From the NCBI GenBank assembly GCA_023336815.1, contig JAMBLJ010000065.1, positions 1 to 52,455 of the forward strand: a DNA stretch of 52,455 nucleotides. The letters run 5' to 3'. The DNA comes from Actinomycetes bacterium (lineage in GTDB: Bacteria > Actinomycetota > Acidimicrobiia > Spongiisociales > UBA5794). Positions 7,498 to 49,000 of the stretch are shown one piece after another (the first letter of the stretch is position 1; each line of letters begins with the position of its first letter). The notes under the pieces were generated by a model that was not told the DNA's origin, ran no database searches, and worked only from the letters and a program-made list of their open reading frames with translations. The position numbers and the translations under genes are program-made.

Positions 7498-7646
7498 GCT
7501 GGGCGATGCTCCTTGGCATCGTGGGAGTACTCGGGATCGCAACCCTGATCGTCCTCCTCATACTCAAACTCCTGGCCCGCCGCGGTTGGCTCTACCTCGA
7601 CCGCGAAGAACCAGAAGACAGACAGCAGACAGCAGACGACAGATGA
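7494..7646 (+). CDS. Small single-TM protein ending inside a heptad repeat
   Basis: 50 codons, too short for the ORF track. MSWAMLLGIVGVLGIATLIV starts a TM helix that continues to LLILKLLARRGW, followed by a polar tail. The ATG overlaps the stop of the upstream gene (ATGA), which supports translation. The last ten or so codons (ending DRQQTADDR) are read from the 7-bp CAGA repeat array, and the stop TGA is itself part of a heptad. The repeat has evidently replaced or extended the original 3' end. Function unknown; probably a partner of the upstream anchored protein. Confidence 0.6.
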   Translation: MSWAMLLGIVGVLGIATLIVLLILKLLARRGWLYLDREEPEDRQQTADDR

Positions 7647-7781
7647 CAGAAAACAGAAAACAGAAAACAGAAAACAGACGAGGCCTGCCGACAGCTGCTA
7701 GCTGAAAGCTTCTTCCGCTAACGGCTTCTTCTGCTGATGTCTGCTGTCTGTCGTCTGCTGTCTGCTGTCTGCTGTCTGCCG
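7612..7781. repeat. Heptad inverted repeat, locus A (NNNCAGA / TCTGNNN)
   Basis: CAGA recurs at exactly 7-bp spacing ten times from 7612 to 7678, with variable triplets between (AGA, CAG, CAG, CGA, TGA, then AAA four times). The opposite arm has TCTG at 7740 and every 7 bp to 7775 (six copies), so the arms can pair. The spacer contains GCTGAAAGCTTCTTCCGCT. It separates convergent genes: the small TM protein and glnII. Confidence 0.9.
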
Positions 7782-10963: not shown

Positions 10964-11059
10964 CAGAAGGCAGACGACAGACAGCAGATGACAGAACCAC
11001 TGCCCCATCACCTGCCGCTTGTGCTCTGCTATCTGACATCTGTGCTCTGCTATCTGTCT
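10964..11059. repeat. Heptad inverted repeat, locus B (five and five units)
   Basis: CAGA occurs at 10964, 10971, 10978, 10985 and 10992. TCTG occurs at 11025, 11032, 11039, 11046 and 11053. Both arms have exactly five units with a 7-bp period, and the triplets differ. The element fills the gap between convergent glnR and the beta-propeller gene, whose TAG stop lies in the right arm's edge. Confidence 0.88.
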
Positions 11060-17443: not shown

Positions 17444-17551
17444 TCGTGTCTCCAGAATCCGCGGTAGCTTGGAACCACCATGATAGGGGAAATCCCTCGC
17501 ACTTTCGACGGATTCGTCGAAACCAGCAATCGCGGCAGATACCATCGGTCC

Positions 17552-18694
17552 ATGGTCACAGAAGCAACAGTGCGAACAGCCCTTGCGAACGTCATCGATC
17601 CGGAGCTCCATACGGACATCGTCGATCTCGGAATGGTCGGTGAGATCTCGATCTCGGACACCATCGCAACGATCGGACTTGCTCTCACTATCGCAAGCTG
17701 TCCGATGCGTGGGCAGATCGAGTCAGACATCATCCGCCGGGTTACTGCAGTGCCAGGGATCGAGGTCGTCCATATCGTGACGTCCGTGATGTCTCAGGAG
17801 CAGCGCTCGACACTCATGGGACGTGCACGACTTCGAGCTCGCGAGACCGCTACGCCCACCGCCGTCAATCCAGCCACAAGGGTGATCGCTGTCAGCAGTG
17901 GGAAGGGCGGCGTCGGCAAGTCCTCGCTCTCAGCAAACATCGCGCTTGCGATCGCCGACCAGGGACACTCCGTTGGCTTGATGGACGCCGATATCTGGGG
18001 ATTCTCAGCACCACGAATCCTCGGCGCTGGTGAGGACAGGCTCGAGGCAAATGAGGATAGAAAGATTGTGCCTACGGTTGCCCACGGTATTCACCTCGTC
18101 TCCACGGGACTTCTTCTCGACGATGAGGACACAGCACTCATGTGGCGAGGACTGATGCTGACCAAGGCTGTCGAGCAATTCCTGAAAGATGTCGCATGGC
18201 CAAACGATCTTGGCTACCTCGTCATCGACATGCCCCCAGGGACTGGCGATGTGCAGATGGCGCTCGCCAGGCTGCTCCCCCAGGCTGAGATTGTGGTGGT
18301 CACGACGCCTCAGGTCGCTGCACAGAAGGTCGCTGCACGAGTCGCAGACATGGCCAAACGTTCGCACATGCCAATCGTCGGTGTAGTGGAGAATATGGCA
18401 GGATTCACAACTGAGTCTGGAGAGCACTATGACATCTTCGGCTCGGGGGGAGGCGAAACGCTTGCAGACGATCTTGGTGTACCGCTGCTTGGTTCTGTTC
18501 CGATCGATCCGCTTGTCGCCTCAGGTGGCGATCGAGGGCATCCGATCATCATCGAACACCCGGGGTCTGCCGCAGCAGTGGCGATCACGGCGGTAGCCGA
18601 GCGGATCACAGAGGTTCTTCCGCCACTCGCCCTTGACAACTGTGTCGGACGCCTCGGTGCGCTCCTCGATGAAATCCCGGTCGTCTCGAACTGA
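17552..18694 (+). CDS. mrp: Mrp/ApbC Fe-S cluster carrier P-loop ATPase
   Basis: 380 aa from the ATG at 17552. An N-terminal DUF59/MIP18 domain (IDPELHTDIVDLGMV ... CPMRGQI) is followed by the Mrp ATPase: deviant Walker A VSSGKGGVGKSSLSANIA, switch region LMDADIWGFSAP, DMPPGTGDVQ, VENMAGF. The CxxC that bridges a cluster in many ApbC/Nbp35 dimers is absent at its usual place: VENMAGFTTESGEHYDIFGSGGG, where others have CPHC. As I recall it, Mycobacterium Mrp also lacks it. The neighbour is the IscA-type carrier, so an Fe-S role is still the best guess, but cluster binding must differ or be lost. Confidence 0.9.
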   Translation: MVTEATVRTALANVIDPELHTDIVDLGMVGEISISDTIATIGLALTIASCPMRGQIESDIIRRVTAVPGIEVVHIVTSVMSQEQRSTLMGRARLRARETATPTAVNPATRVIAVSSGKGGVGKSSLSANIALAIADQGHSVGLMDADIWGFSAPRILGAGEDRLEANEDRKIVPTVAHGIHLVSTGLLLDDEDTALMWRGLMLTKAVEQFLKDVAWPNDLGYLVIDMPPGTGDVQMALARLLPQAEIVVVTTPQVAAQKVAARVADMAKRSHMPIVGVVENMAGFTTESGEHYDIFGSGGGETLADDLGVPLLGSVPIDPLVASGGDRGHPIIIEHPGSAAAVAITAVAERITEVLPPLALDNCVGRLGALLDEIPVVSN

Positions 18695-19300
18695 GTCCCT
18701 CCGTCACATGAGTAGTTCGTCCGACCCATTTTCGGCACGCTTCGTTCAAGCTCATTTCGGGCATGCCGATGGGATTGAGACACACGAGGGAAAGACTATG
18801 CAGCCACTCCACCACGTTCACGAGAACACTGCGACCTGTTCGAGGCAATCGGGCGACTCCGACCGCGGCTCAGGGGCGATCACCTGCATCATCTGCGCCC
18901 GCCCTCTCGCAGAGCACGAGATAGGTGATCACGACATCAACGTTGTCCAGAAGATGCTGAGCATCGGATTTCCGACACCCGTCGGCGAGCGCCTTTCCTA
19001 GAGAATCAGCCAATCGCACAGTTGCTGCACCATTCAGCGCGCCTCGAAGTACGTAGAACGACTCAGAGGGAACGTGCAACAAGAAGTGGGGAGTGATTCC
19101 CGACACTCCGTGTTGCGAAGATCAACGACCGCTGACTGATCGGGGGCTGCATATGGTTCCGCCGGTTCACGCGTCCCTGCCGTTCGTACTTCGTGCTACG
19201 TACTACGTGATACAAGGCTCCGCAGCACTATCTCTTGTGGCACCAGCCTCACCTATCCGCGCGTTCTCTACGTACTTCGCAAAACGTCATACGTCATACG
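18695..19300. other. 600-bp region with no confident gene
   Basis: Two mutually exclusive small frames occur here: plus 18798-19001 (own entry) and minus 18870-19106 (MSGITPHFLLHVPSESFYVL..., 78 codons). Neither matches a family I know. The right part holds two CG-phased heptad runs (about 19045-19079, weak, and 19185-19212, clear). No tRNA or riboswitch was recognised. Confidence 0.5.
18798..19001 (+). CDS. Possible small protein with a Cys pair
   Basis: Starting at an ATG preceded by GAGGGAAAGACT, this 67-residue frame reads MQPLHHVHENTATC and later GAITCIICARPLAEHEIGDH. The CxxC and several His suggest a small metal-binding protein, and the SD spacing is good. Against it: a minus-strand frame covers much of the same DNA, and I recognise no family. 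It would be co-directional with mrp, about 100 bp downstream of it. Confidence 0.35.
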   Translation: MQPLHHVHENTATCSRQSGDSDRGSGAITCIICARPLAEHEIGDHDINVVQKMLSIGFPTPVGERLS

Positions 19301-19333
19301 TCATACGTCATACGGATGACGAATGACGTATGC
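19185..19333. repeat. Heptad repeat, locus C (CGNNNNN, CGTCATA)
   Basis: Nine consecutive heptads run from 19271 to 19333, each starting with CG: CGTACTT, CGCAAAA, four CGTCATA, CGGATGA, CGAATGA, CGTATGC. A second run of four lies at 19185-19212 (CGTACTT, CGTGCTA, CGTACTA, CGTGATA). The right end can fold back on the CGTCATA run. It marks a convergent boundary and overlaps the end of the metallo-hydrolase gene. Confidence 0.9.
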
Positions 19334-20071
19334 CTCGCCGTCTACCCGGACCAGACCGTCCTCCACGAGCTTGTGTAGCTGCACACCCACCTGATGGACG
19401 GCTGCGTGTCGCAACCCGATGGGCAAACCTTCGTACACCACATCGACGATCGTGCCGATCGACCGGGCGCCGCCGCGTACCGCATCGATGATCTGGCGCT
19501 CACGCTCAAGCCTGTGATCGATGTAGCTCGTGATGACCATCGCAGCGTTGTCCATCGAATCACCGTGTCCCGGTTCGAGCGTTCGAACATGGAGGTCACG
19601 CACCAGATACAGACTGTCGAGATAGTCTGCCGCATCCTCGATGATGACCGTCGAGCCTTCCATGATGTGGTCCCCGGTGAACAGCGTGTCACCGAGGAGA
19701 AAACACAGATGATCCGGCGTATGTCCTGGAGTGTGGATCGCGCTAAGCGACAGGGATCCGAAGTCGATCGATCCGCCATCACCCACCATGACGTCGGGGA
19801 CGAACTGTGGACCCCTCTCGTAGCCGTACACCGGGACACCGAGACGCGAACCAAGCGGGTTCGCCATAGGTGCATGATCCGGATGTGTGTGGGTAACAAC
19901 AACACCAACAGGGTCGATGCCCTTGAGTGCAGAGATGATCTCCAGGGTGTGCTCATCGATGATCGGACCCGGGTCGAGAACGAGAGCCTCACCGTTGCTT
20001 ACGAGTACATAGGTGTTCGTTCCGGGACCTGTGTACATGCTCGGATTGGGAGCGAGAAGACGCTGGATCAT
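19301..20071 (-). CDS. MBL-fold metallo-hydrolase with winged-helix C-terminus
   Basis: 256 aa. The metal-binding motif THTHPDHAP (HxHxDH) is complete, with later ligands in HTPGHTPDHLCF, TGDHIMEG and LEPGHGDSM. The N-terminal PNPSMYTGPGTNTYVL and a C-terminal winged-helix-like segment (HAAVHQVGVQLHKLVEDGLV) match the LACTB2-like branch, some members of which are endoribonucleases. Substrate is unknown. It overlaps the Nudix gene upstream by ATGA. Its last ten residues (AYVIRHPYDV) and the stop codon are encoded by heptads of repeat locus C, so the natural C-terminus appears to have been replaced by repeat sequence. Confidence 0.9.
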   Translation of the reverse strand: MIQRLLAPNPSMYTGPGTNTYVLVSNGEALVLDPGPIIDEHTLEIISALKGIDPVGVVVTHTHPDHAPMANPLGSRLGVPVYGYERGPQFVPDVMVGDGGSIDFGSLSLSAIHTPGHTPDHLCFLLGDTLFTGDHIMEGSTVIIEDAADYLDSLYLVRDLHVRTLEPGHGDSMDNAAMVITSYIDHRLERERQIIDAVRGGARSIGTIVDVVYEGLPIGLRHAAVHQVGVQLHKLVEDGLVRVDGEAYVIRHPYDV

Positions 20072-26925: not shown

Positions 26926-26946
26926 CCGGTGAGGGTAGAGGAGGAA

Positions 26947-27204
26947 CAGACGACAGCTGTCAGACGACAGACAACAGACAGCAGACAACAGAAGCAGAAG
27001 AGCGCTGTCAGCCGTCAGCCTTCAGAAGAACACGGCTGAGAGCCAACAGCTCACAGACAGCAGAGGAGGTCGGCGAGAGCGGAGTTTGTTCTCCGGGTTC
27101 CGCAGCTGACGGCTGAGGGCTTCTTCCGCTGCCTGAAGGCTGATGGCTGATGGCTTCTGCCGTCTGCTGTCTGGCATCTGCTGTCTGCCGTCTGTCCTCT
27201 GCCT
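26947..27204. repeat. Heptad inverted repeat, locus D (seven and seven units)
   Basis: The left arm 26947-26995 is seven heptads starting mostly with CAGA. The right arm 27156-27204 is seven heptads starting with TCTG, so the arms are equal at 49 bp. Inside, further 7-bp runs occur (GCTGTCA GCCGTCA GCCTTCA; CTGATGG CTGATGG). It fills the 296-bp space between divergent NfeD and the receiver gene, so promoters must lie in or beside it. Confidence 0.9.
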
Positions 27205-27221
27205 TCGTCTATTCTTACCCC

Positions 27222-37881: not shown

Positions 37882-38868
37882 ATGCAAGTTGCGAGTTATC
37901 TACCGAACAGGAACCTGGCGCTCGAGCTCGTACGGGTCACCGAAGCAGCGGCGATCTCCGCGGCACGTGAGCAAGGACGCGGGGACAAACACCTCGTGGA
38001 CCAGGCAGCAGTCGACGCCATGCGCGCCGTGCTGTCGAGAACCGATCTCGACGGGATTGTCGTCATAGGCGAAGGCGAAAAGGACGAGGCTCCGATGCTC
38101 TACAACGGAGAACGCGTTGGAAACGGGAACCCCCCACAGGTCGATGTAGCGGTTGACCCCGTTGATGGGACCAGACTCACAGCAGAGGGCAAGGGCGGAG
38201 CCCTTGCCGTGATCGCACTCGCTGAGAAGGGGTCGATGTACGCGCCAGGAAGCCTCGTCTATATGGACAAGATCGCTGTCGGGGAAGAAGCCGCAGGGAC
38301 GATAGACATCGATGCACCGGTTCTCCACAATCTCAAACAGGTCGGAAAGGCAGTCGGCAAGGAGATCAACGAACTCACCGTCGTGATCCTCGAGCGACCG
38401 CGCAACAACGACTACATTCGCCAGGTACGCGAGGCAGGTGCGCGTATCTCCCTCATCGCTGATGGCGACATCCAGGGAGCGATAACCACCGCGATCAGAG
38501 GCAACGGCATCGACCTCATGCTTGGCATCGGCGGTTCACCGGAGGCTGTAACGACCGCATGCGCCATGGCGGCGCTTCGTGGCGAGATCCAGTGCAAGCT
38601 GTGGCCACGAGACGATGTCGAGCGAACGTACGCTCGCGAACACGGACACGACCTCAACCGGGTGCTCACCACAAAGGATCTTGTCGACTCGGACAACACG
38701 TTCTTCGCCGCAACGGGTGTCACGACAGGTGCGTTGCTGCGTGGTGTCCGCTTTGGTGGAATCCACACATCAACACACTCCGTCATCATGCGTTCAGAAT
38801 CCGGAACCGTTCGATTCATCGAGGCGGACCACAGGGTCGAATGGGTTGAAGGTGCGATAAAGCCATAG
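37882..38868 (+). CDS. glpX: Fructose-1,6-bisphosphatase class II
   Basis: 328 aa. GlpX signatures: RGDKHLVDQAAVDAMR, VIGEGEKDEAPML, VAVDPVDGTRL with Li+/Mg2+-site acidic residues, GGSPEAVTTACAMAALRGEI and FAATGVTTGALLRGVRF. Dephosphorylates fructose 1,6-bisphosphate in gluconeogenesis. Start ATG lies 3 bp after the thiolase stop. The gene ends immediately before the heptad repeat locus E. Confidence 0.96.
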   Translation: MQVASYLPNRNLALELVRVTEAAAISAAREQGRGDKHLVDQAAVDAMRAVLSRTDLDGIVVIGEGEKDEAPMLYNGERVGNGNPPQVDVAVDPVDGTRLTAEGKGGALAVIALAEKGSMYAPGSLVYMDKIAVGEEAAGTIDIDAPVLHNLKQVGKAVGKEINELTVVILERPRNNDYIRQVREAGARISLIADGDIQGAITTAIRGNGIDLMLGIGGSPEAVTTACAMAALRGEIQCKLWPRDDVERTYAREHGHDLNRVLTTKDLVDSDNTFFAATGVTTGALLRGVRFGGIHTSTHSVIMRSESGTVRFIEADHRVEWVEGAIKP

Positions 38869-38870
38869 GG

Positions 38871-38899
38871 CAGACGACAGACAACAGACGGCAGACAGC
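38871..38899. repeat. Heptad repeat half-element, locus E (four units)
   Basis: CAGA occurs at 38871, 38878, 38885 and 38892 with triplets CGA, CAA and CGG between. There is no matching TCTG arm; instead two compact hairpins follow. It begins 2 bp after the glpX stop. Confidence 0.85.
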
Positions 38900-38900
38900 G

Positions 38901-38943
38901 GGAACGCCAAAGGCGTTCCTTGGGAGTTCGCTTTGCGAACTCC
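38901..38943. terminator. Two tandem hairpins between convergent genes
   Basis: GGAACGCC-AAA-GGCGTTCC (38901-38919) and GGAGTTCGC-TTT-GCGAACTCC (38923-38943) are both perfect. They can terminate glpX and the opposing glycosyltransferase transcript. Their loops AAA and TTT mirror each other. Confidence 0.7.
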
Positions 38944-38958
38944 AGTCCGGTCCGAGAA

Positions 38959-40960: not shown

Positions 40961-40979
40961 GAGCAAGATGGTAGCTGTC

Positions 40980-41080
40980 AGATAAGAGACAACAGACAAC
41001 AGATTCCAGACACAATCCGAGCCCTCACCGATCGGCCACAGCTGTCTGTGTTCTGTTGTCCGTGCTCTGATGTCTGCAAC
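40980..41080. repeat. Heptad inverted repeat, locus F (five and five units)
   Basis: CAGA at 40980, 40994, 41001 and 41008, with GAGA at 40987 in phase. TCTG at 41045, 41052, 41066 and 41073, with TCCG at 41059 in phase. Each arm has five units and one point-mutated unit. It occupies nearly the whole gap between divergent ybaB and dnaX. Confidence 0.85.
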
Positions 41081-43571: not shown

Positions 43572-44738
43572 ATGCGAAGGCGAAATATCGTCTCGTTGGT
43601 GATTGCACTCATGCTGGTTCTCGCGGCTTGCGCGTCGACAGGATCAGATGACACAACAACAACAGCCGCAGATTCGGGCGGCGAGGCAACAACAACAACA
43701 GCCGCAGATTCGGGCGGCGAGGCAACAACAACAACTGCAGCAGCGACGACAACCACAGCGGACCCGAAGGCCGATTGGCCTGAGACGCTCCTCTTTGGTT
43801 TCATCCCGTCGGAGAAGCAGGAGAAGCTCGCTGACACGGTCCAACCGTATATGGACTATCTGACGGAGCAGATCGGTATCACGTTCGAAGGCATCATCAC
43901 GGCCGACTACAACGGACTCGTTGTGGCCATGGGTGCAGGGAACGCGGATCTCGGCGCTTTCGGTCCGTTTGGTTACGTTCAGGCCCAGGAGCAGTATCCA
44001 GGGATCGGTGTGTTGATCCAGTCAATCCGTTTCGGCTCCGATCTGTATCACGGTCAGTGGTTCACAAACGATGCTTCTATCTGTGAAGAAGAACCGGTCG
44101 TTGGTGCGTTCGAATGGGTCGATGGTGTTCCCACGATCCTCGATCCCACCGAGGTACCTGCACTCCAGGTCGGTTGGGCTTACAACGATGGTGAACTCGG
44201 AGCAGAGGTCCTCGACGACGGTCAAGCCGTTGCCCAGGGTCTCGTATGCAACGCTCCACTCGAGTCTGTGGTTGGCAAGAACATTGCCTTCACGAGCGCA
44301 ACGTCCACATCGGGCGGAGTGTTCCCACAGCTCCAGCTGTTCAACCTCGGCATCGACATCGAGGAAGACCTCGACTATTCGTACCTGACGTCGCACGACG
44401 CAACGGTGGCAGCTGTCTACAACGGTGACTTCGACATCGGCCTCAGCTTCGACGACGCTCGTCGTACGCTCCGCAAGGAGAAGACTGATGTCGGGCAGAA
44501 GGTGATCGTTTTCAACATCACCGATGACATCCCGAATGATGTTGTTGCTGTCCGCGAAGGTTTGCCGGAGGACCTCCAGCTTGCGATCTTCGACGCAACG
44601 AAGGCGTATCTCGGTACCGAAGAGGGCGAGGCAGTCTTCGATGAGATCTACGGATGGACTGACATCCGCCTCGCACGCGACGAAGATTTCGACGTCGTAC
44701 GCGAAGCAGCAGTCAAACTCGGCGTAGCCGACGAATAA
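43572..44738 (+). CDS. phnD: PhnD-like substrate-binding lipoprotein
   Basis: 388 aa. Lipobox LVLAACAST, then a Thr-rich tether containing a 12-residue tandem duplication, then the PhnD fold: LFGFIPSEKQEKLADTVQPY, ITADYNGLVVAMGAGNADLGAFGPFGYVQAQE, ITFTS-like IAFTSATSTSGGVFPQL and DIGLSFDDARRTL. The family binds phosphonates, phosphite or related oxyanions. First gene of an importer with phnC and two phnE genes. No C-P lyase or other phosphonate-degrading gene is present, so the natural ligand is open. Confidence 0.9.
   Translation: MRRRNIVSLVIALMLVLAACASTGSDDTTTTAADSGGEATTTTAADSGGEATTTTAAATTTTADPKADWPETLLFGFIPSEKQEKLADTVQPYMDYLTEQIGITFEGIITADYNGLVVAMGAGNADLGAFGPFGYVQAQEQYPGIGVLIQSIRFGSDLYHGQWFTNDASICEEEPVVGAFEWVDGVPTILDPTEVPALQVGWAYNDGELGAEVLDDGQAVAQGLVCNAPLESVVGKNIAFTSATSTSGGVFPQLQLFNLGIDIEEDLDYSYLTSHDATVAAVYNGDFDIGLSFDDARRTLRKEKTDVGQKVIVFNITDDIPNDVVAVREGLPEDLQLAIFDATKAYLGTEEGEAVFDEIYGWTDIRLARDEDFDVVREAAVKLGVADE
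43653..43724 (+). repeat. Perfect 36-bp tandem duplication in phnD
   Basis: Two identical 36-bp units encode TTTTAADSGGEA twice, followed by a partial third (TTTTA). It lengthens the tether between lipid anchor and binding domain by whole codons. Identity at every base suggests recent duplication. Confidence 0.92.
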
Positions 44739-48823: not shown

Positions 48824-49000
48824 GAGACGTTTACCGTTTACCGTTTACCGTTTACCGAGCCGTATCAGAAGCCGATGTTTTGCGGATCCGGACCGTCGAA
48901 CGACGCCGTCGAAGGTCAATCGACGCACCGCTGAACCTCAGATATGCGGCGCTGGCCACCTACACCCTTCTTGCGGTAAACGGTGAACGGTAAACGTCTC
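48824..49000. repeat. Heptad inverted repeat, locus G (CGTTTAC)
   Basis: Left arm: GAGA then four CGTTTAC heptads (48828-48855). Right arm: GTAAACG, GTGAACG, GTAAACG (48976-48996) then TCTC. The outer 11 bp (GAGACGTTTAC/GTAAACGTCTC) pair perfectly, and 27 bp pair with one mismatch. The 117-bp interior shows no gene or repeat. It separates convergent dgt and the nitroreductase gene. Confidence 0.9.

Follow-up and report, generated by a model that had tools for sequence, protein, structure and literature searches.

The array of nine CG-initial heptads at 19271–19333 of the window (the whole stretch of 52,455 bp that was analysed, contig C65 of the source genome G000, a 3.0-Mb draft of 299 contigs with 94% completeness) is one of many heptanucleotide arrays that are spread through the non-coding DNA of this genome. 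As in heptanucleotide repeats of bacteria generally, the excess is at exactly 7 nt and the arrays are dispersed and mainly non-coding. They are a multi-word variant of these known repeats, and what is added here is that several words, none of them G-rich, are found together in a single genome and also at a single boundary. The features of the window are collected in Table 1; genes were called by a simple codon-usage script.

Table 1. Heptad arrays and neighbouring features, with positions in the window
Position	Strand	Feature
7612..7678		CAGANNN array, left arm of inverted pair
7734..7779		NNNTCTG array, partner of 7612..7678 as right arm
10964..11056		Complete CAGANNN (10964–10995) / NNNTCTG (11025–11056) pair, occupying the whole of a convergent gap of 96 bp
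17480..18694	+	Iron-sulphur carrier ATPase of the Mrp/NUBPL type, convergent neighbour on the left
19045..19065		Three heptads, left arm, complementary in sense to 19185–19212
19045..19282	+	Copy of a ~240-bp dispersed element, non-coding, whose heptad arms are inverted
19185..19212		Four heptads, right arm of inverted pair within the dispersed element
19271..19333		Main heptad array, CGTACTT CGCAAAA (CGTCATA)4 followed by inverted CGGATGA CGAATGA CGTATGC; fold-back hairpin
19301..20071	-	Protein of the metallo-beta-lactamase fold with a winged-helix tail, convergent neighbour on the right
26946..27206		Nested inverted arrays: outer CAGANNN, inner TCAGCCN/CTGANGG, outer NNNTCTG
38864..38899		CAGANNN array without partner array, then two strong hairpins
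40979..41076		CAGANNN / NNNTCTG pair
48828..48991		(CGTTTAC)4 with inverted CGGTAAA partner at 48974–48991

The boundary downstream of the Mrp gene

The initial annotation had described nine unbroken heptads at 19271–19333, four at 19185–19212 and a weak run near 19045, and direct reading found all three to be exact. The four heptads read CGTACTT CGTGCTA CGTACTA CGTGATA and the weak run, at 19045–19065, CGAAGTA CGTAGAA CGACTCA, while Tandem Repeats Finder reported 4.4 perfect copies at 19284–19314. The heptads at 19045–19333 are not a product of chance. When the spacing was set to other values from 3 to 21, no run of CG within the window was longer than seven, and the CG frequency predicts ~9e-5 runs of nine for the window at a given spacing; the self-match in 19185–19333 was 0.514 at lag 7 and 0.154–0.181 at lags 5, 6 and 8. 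The second half of the main array is, in sense, the reverse complement of the first and the heptad phase carries through the centre, since CG is self-complementary. Its proposed ability to fold back agrees with a predicted hairpin at 19256–19340 (-27.9 kcal/mol, z -3.2).

The boundary is convergent, as had been stated, with the Mrp/NUBPL-type ATPase gene ending at 18694 on the forward strand and the gene of the metallo-beta-lactamase-fold protein at 19301 on the reverse strand. The last ~10 codons and the stop codon of the latter fall within the heptad array; in an alignment the protein matches its orthologue up to residue 241 and then departs, and its terminal residues, AYVIRHPYDV, are translated from the array.

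The locus at this boundary is composite, with one copy of a dispersed element (19045–19282) as well as the hairpin array (19271–19333). Partial copies of this element, 72–86% identical with the non-heptad sequence included, were found on contigs C164, C184, C63, C69 (twice) and C287, and its core is essentially restricted to G000 among the 37 genomes compared. Part of the period-7 signal at 19045–19213, which had been put down to arrays of a second word, belongs to an element copy and not to a freshly formed array, although the heptads themselves are there. The partial copies, together with a polarity that is fixed for each word, could be read as signs of a dispersed mobile or REP/MITE-like element, the arrays then being the arms of a non-autonomous element copied round the genome. 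Such an origin is improbable for the arrays in general; elements of the CAGA type have only their arrays in common, with unrelated spacers, the core of the 19045–19282 element hardly occurs outside G000, and neither a Y1 (REP-associated) transposase nor a reverse transcriptase was found in the G000 assembly. The search for the Y1 transposase (PF01797), negative in this genome of 94% completeness, was positive in five control genomes. A REP/BIME system with a RAYT was rejected since G000 has no Y1 transposase, and a MITE with conserved interior was rejected for the CAGA elements on account of their unrelated spacers.

In relatives, including the congener G002, an M23-peptidase gene is located directly after the lactamase-fold gene and abuts Mrp wherever the next gene shares the contig. 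This gene is missing at 18694–19301 in G000, where the element copy and the hairpin of heptads occupy the gap, and M23 matches elsewhere in the genome are weaker (at most 47% identical); the arrays therefore sit at the scar of a gene loss.

After the same Mrp gene, three genera carry arrays: G000 with CGTCATA, G010 with CAGAAGT/CCGATGA over 158 bp and G008 with a hairpin of AGCTGCA...CTTGAAG. The words are unrelated and the period is identical, and the arrays turn over between genera at one site. No heptad array was found at this boundary in G004, G005, G006, G007, G012, G014 and G022. Three arrays at ten Mrp boundaries is close to what the convergent gaps of G000 would lead one to expect, so the site is not special.

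Period seven across the genome

Genome statistics were taken from ~636 kb of G000 stretches, some of which had been picked for carrying arrays or element copies; the comparison of lags is independent of this choice while array densities are not. Array counts are low estimates, because the genome is a draft and some arrays lie at contig ends. It had been proposed that the period and not the sequence is the conserved property, to be judged by whether intergenic autocorrelation at lag 7 exceeds that of neighbouring lags, and in this sample the intergenic self-match was 0.290 at lag 7, 0.259 at lag 6 and 0.252 at both lag 5 and lag 8, with lags 14 and 21 also elevated as harmonics of 7. The proposal is upheld by several words within G000 and other words in its relatives as well as by the three words at the Mrp boundary.

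Strong intergenic arrays in the same sample numbered 32 at lag 7 and 0–2 at lags other than 7 and its multiples, while in coding DNA the remaining lag peaks were multiples of 3, as expected. All strong lag-7 arrays taken together, 32 of the 49 were intergenic; of the 17 that fell in called ORFs, roughly half overlapped an ORF end. The window itself holds five strong lag-7 segments, and others only at lags 14, 21 and 28 besides a single one at lag 3 and another at lag 6. A pattern search with CAGAC gave 149 matches spread over many contigs of G000; its mirror-image control was uninformative as the pattern is its own mirror. The control of the CGTANNA pattern gave zero matches.

Arrays were found in 15 of 56 convergent gaps and in 26 of 225 other gaps (p = 0.0097). 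The convergent location claimed for them thus corresponds to an enrichment, but the preference, though real, is moderate. Divergent gaps in the ~636 kb showed no preference. Some arrays start only a few bases from a stop codon, and this together with the convergent enrichment and the pairing of CAGA and TCTG cores in predicted folds could mean that RNA or single-strand hairpins are under selection, as bidirectional terminators or 3'-end protectors, with helices of 4 bp and internal loops of three bases giving the period. A hairpin, however, does not need tandem repetition within its arm, and arrays without any partner exist. In tandem gaps the bias of arrays toward the upstream stop codon was not significant (p = 0.22), for which reason a terminator role is weakly supported; we consider selected hairpins a quite improbable explanation of the arrays. 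Among known RNA families only a tRNA was found in the window.

Words, unit structure and distribution

Several words of period 7 coexist in G000, namely CAGANNN, CGTANNA/CGTCATA, CGGTNNA, CAGCNNT and CAGTNNN, and the cores include CAGA, CGTA/ACGT, CGGT, CAGC, CAGT and CTGA. CAGA is dominant, with 50 arrays of at least four units compared with 0–1 at spacings of 5, 8, 10 and 11. When mismatches were counted along the heptad, typical values were 0, 0, 0, 0, 2, 3 and 2, and the variation within the unit is uneven (chi2 302 on 204 df, p = 9e-6), being concentrated in about three positions; the unit thus consists of about four fixed and about three free bases.

Pairs of a CAGA array and its complement within 300 bp numbered 19 in the polarity CAGA...TCTG, and none had the opposite polarity, TCTG...CAGA. 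The sequences between the arms are unrelated, and most of the inverted-pair elements fold better than shuffled sequences (z from -1.1 to -7.7), although arrays without a partner array also occur (e.g. 38864–38899). Copying between the arms by fold-back was rejected, as the variable bases of paired arms are barely more alike (38%) than those of arms from different elements (33%).

Such a unit may also be read by a protein. A DNA-binding protein, e.g. a ribbon-helix-helix protein similar to Omega, would recognise the 4-base core once per 7 bp, and the arrays would be operators, nucleoid sites or segregation sites. The four fixed and three variable bases in a 7-bp register and the fixed polarity in spite of unrelated spacers would suit this, and there is a precedent in Omega/ParB, where one dimer binds per contiguous 7-bp WATCACW repeat (PMC9499535). 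In G000, however, at least five unrelated cores would demand several proteins, the words differ between congeners, and a search for the Omega family gave no match, though it matched in none of the control genomes either. We find it unlikely that recognition by protein accounts for the arrays.

Arrays of lag 7 with other words were found in the relatives G003, G005, G008, G010, G014, G020 and G023, the heptad word differing between congeners as well as between genera. Arrays of four CGTANNA units were identified in at least 118 stretches of a species-representative collection, where ~0.03 are expected by chance (22 fixed bases, 257 Gb). The hosts comprise Acidobacteria, Chloroflexi, Bacteroidetes, Proteobacteria, Planctomycetes, Deinococcota, Streptomyces and others. 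With CGTANNA masked, 90 further arrays appeared at lag 7 and at most 15 at any other lag that is not a multiple of it, among the matches listed; also among these, 80 inverted pairs were counted in the 118 stretches, and the purine polarity was not universal. A universal purine-rich first arm was accordingly rejected, since it holds for CAGA in G000 but fails across phyla (43 against 33). It is possible, as a tentative reading, that fold-back elements with a period of 7 bp form a wide class across bacterial phyla, with a fixed core of about four bases, about three free bases and an arm polarity specific to each genome, made or kept by a putative factor that steps or binds by seven and leaves the word free.

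As a separate observation, CGTANNA arrays were also seen in viral contigs, in four IMG/VR stretches (L235:925, L236:13218, L237:3070 and L238:1548). A contig of the Campylobacteraceae (L149:171) holds a heptad array of ~328 bp with TAGGAAT and CGTANNA units in one run.

Proposed origin and relation to known heptamers

We give about an even chance to an origin in which the arrays are born locally by slippage in steps of 7 nt, favoured by fold-back, and are kept between genes. Strand misalignment during DNA synthesis, with 7 nt as the preferred step, would create the arrays in place, most easily where a strand can fold back on itself. Arrays arising in coding DNA would cause frameshifts and be eliminated, hence their survival between genes, and convergent gene ends would tolerate the resulting hairpins, which may act as two-way transcript ends. 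Slippage of this kind is favoured because the intergenic excess is at lag 7 only, because the word changes between congeners and genera with three words at one boundary, because the inverted pairs, 19:0 in one polarity, fold (z down to -7.7) and have unrelated spacers, and because the same design recurs around CGTANNA arrays in many phyla. It is further favoured by the lack of any reverse transcriptase or Y1 transposase among the genes found in the G000 assembly, and by prior reports, as cited elsewhere, on the frequency of heptanucleotides and a polymerase-contact hypothesis (see below). Telomerase-like or retron addition was rejected, no reverse transcriptase having been found in the assembly.

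Plain slippage with point mutation is disfavoured, because it predicts even variation while the variation is concentrated in about three positions, does not predict the 19:0 polarity and does not prefer 7 over 6, 8 or 9. Slippage alone would therefore be insufficient, and a further factor would be needed for the step of seven and the approximately four fixed bases; candidates are a polymerase contact, or a register of protein or hairpin that needs a 4-base core.

In Xanthomonas and Nostoc, heptamers of GGGAATC and GGGGA(C/T)T form units of (GGGANTN)n with positions 1–4 and 6 conserved, occur as 70–75 inverted pairs of convergent orientation per genome, are ~90% intergenic, and form long arrays at different genes in related species, for which G-quadruplexes were given as explanation (Rehm et al. 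2015, PMC4692102). The arrays of G000 resemble the GGGAATC heptamers of Xanthomonas in their 7-bp unit, four conserved bases, convergent inverted pairs, intergenic location and lack of synteny, but whereas those genomes have one G-rich word each, G000 has several words, none of them with a GGG tract. G-quadruplexes were rejected as the cause, the array words having no G-tracts, and cannot explain the class as a whole. The direct repeats of TAACTGA in marine Beggiatoaceae, of which one genome has 169 sets and whose distribution across phyla is patchy, are likewise intergenic heptamers, but their word is single and fixed, they mostly lie shortly before start codons and only one repeat is indirect (MacGregor 2015, PMC4679880); TAACTGA is not among the words of G000 or its relatives, and the arrays of G000 do not prefer divergent gaps.

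Among long simple sequence repeats, heptanucleotides are the commonest of those of 5–11 nt, and it was suggested that 7 nt is the contact length of a polymerase (Mrazek et al. 2007, as cited in PMC4679880). With these repeats, as they are cited there, our arrays share a preference for non-coding units of 7 nt, and parts of the multi-word picture may already be in the tables of that work. Heptanucleotides of Calothrix are also on record (as cited in PMC4692102); in the cited form neither account mentions inverted polarity or a 4+3 unit. Tandem repeats of constant size and variable sequence in Bacillus (Subirana and Messeguer 2021, PMC8161180) have in common with our arrays that the length is conserved and the sequence not, and that several families of the same length share a genome, but their lengths are 52 and 20–21 nt instead of 7. 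The parS of pSM19035, on which Omega/ParB requires at least four contiguous 7-bp WATCACW repeats for full activity (PMC9499535), has like our arrays contiguous units in direct and inverted orientation; it is however found on one plasmid with a fixed word and a dedicated RHH protein, and WATCACW is absent among the G000 arrays, the word list containing TATCACG variants that are one base short of it.

Earlier heptamers were described word by word (GGGAATC, TAACTGA) and with word-specific explanations, G-quadruplexes or regulator sites. Such explanations cannot be general, given that unrelated words have the same anatomy, both within a single genome and at an orthologous boundary. It is the length of seven that needs explaining, and the old remark on polymerase contact length becomes a testable question. 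Dispersed heptads can also lengthen reading frames and mark the scars of gene loss, and probably add to breaks in short-read assemblies.

Some other repeats were noted. Beside the CAGA array ending at 38899, two adjacent strong hairpins, GGGAACGCCAAAGGCGTTCC and GGAGTTCGCTTTGCGAACTCC, occupy 38899–38945, and as closely similar variants recur at L016 (~715) and L017 (~7592) they look like a dispersed terminator-like unit. A higher-order repeat at L108:2978–3142, with a unit of ~55 bp containing CAGACGACAGATTCCAGATCGCTCTGCTTCAGAGCACAGACCGG in about three copies, adjoins a TCTG array. At 43653–43743, within the ORF 43572–44738, a 36-bp repeat is present in 2.5 copies (96%), and with a period that is a multiple of three it is probably a protein linker.
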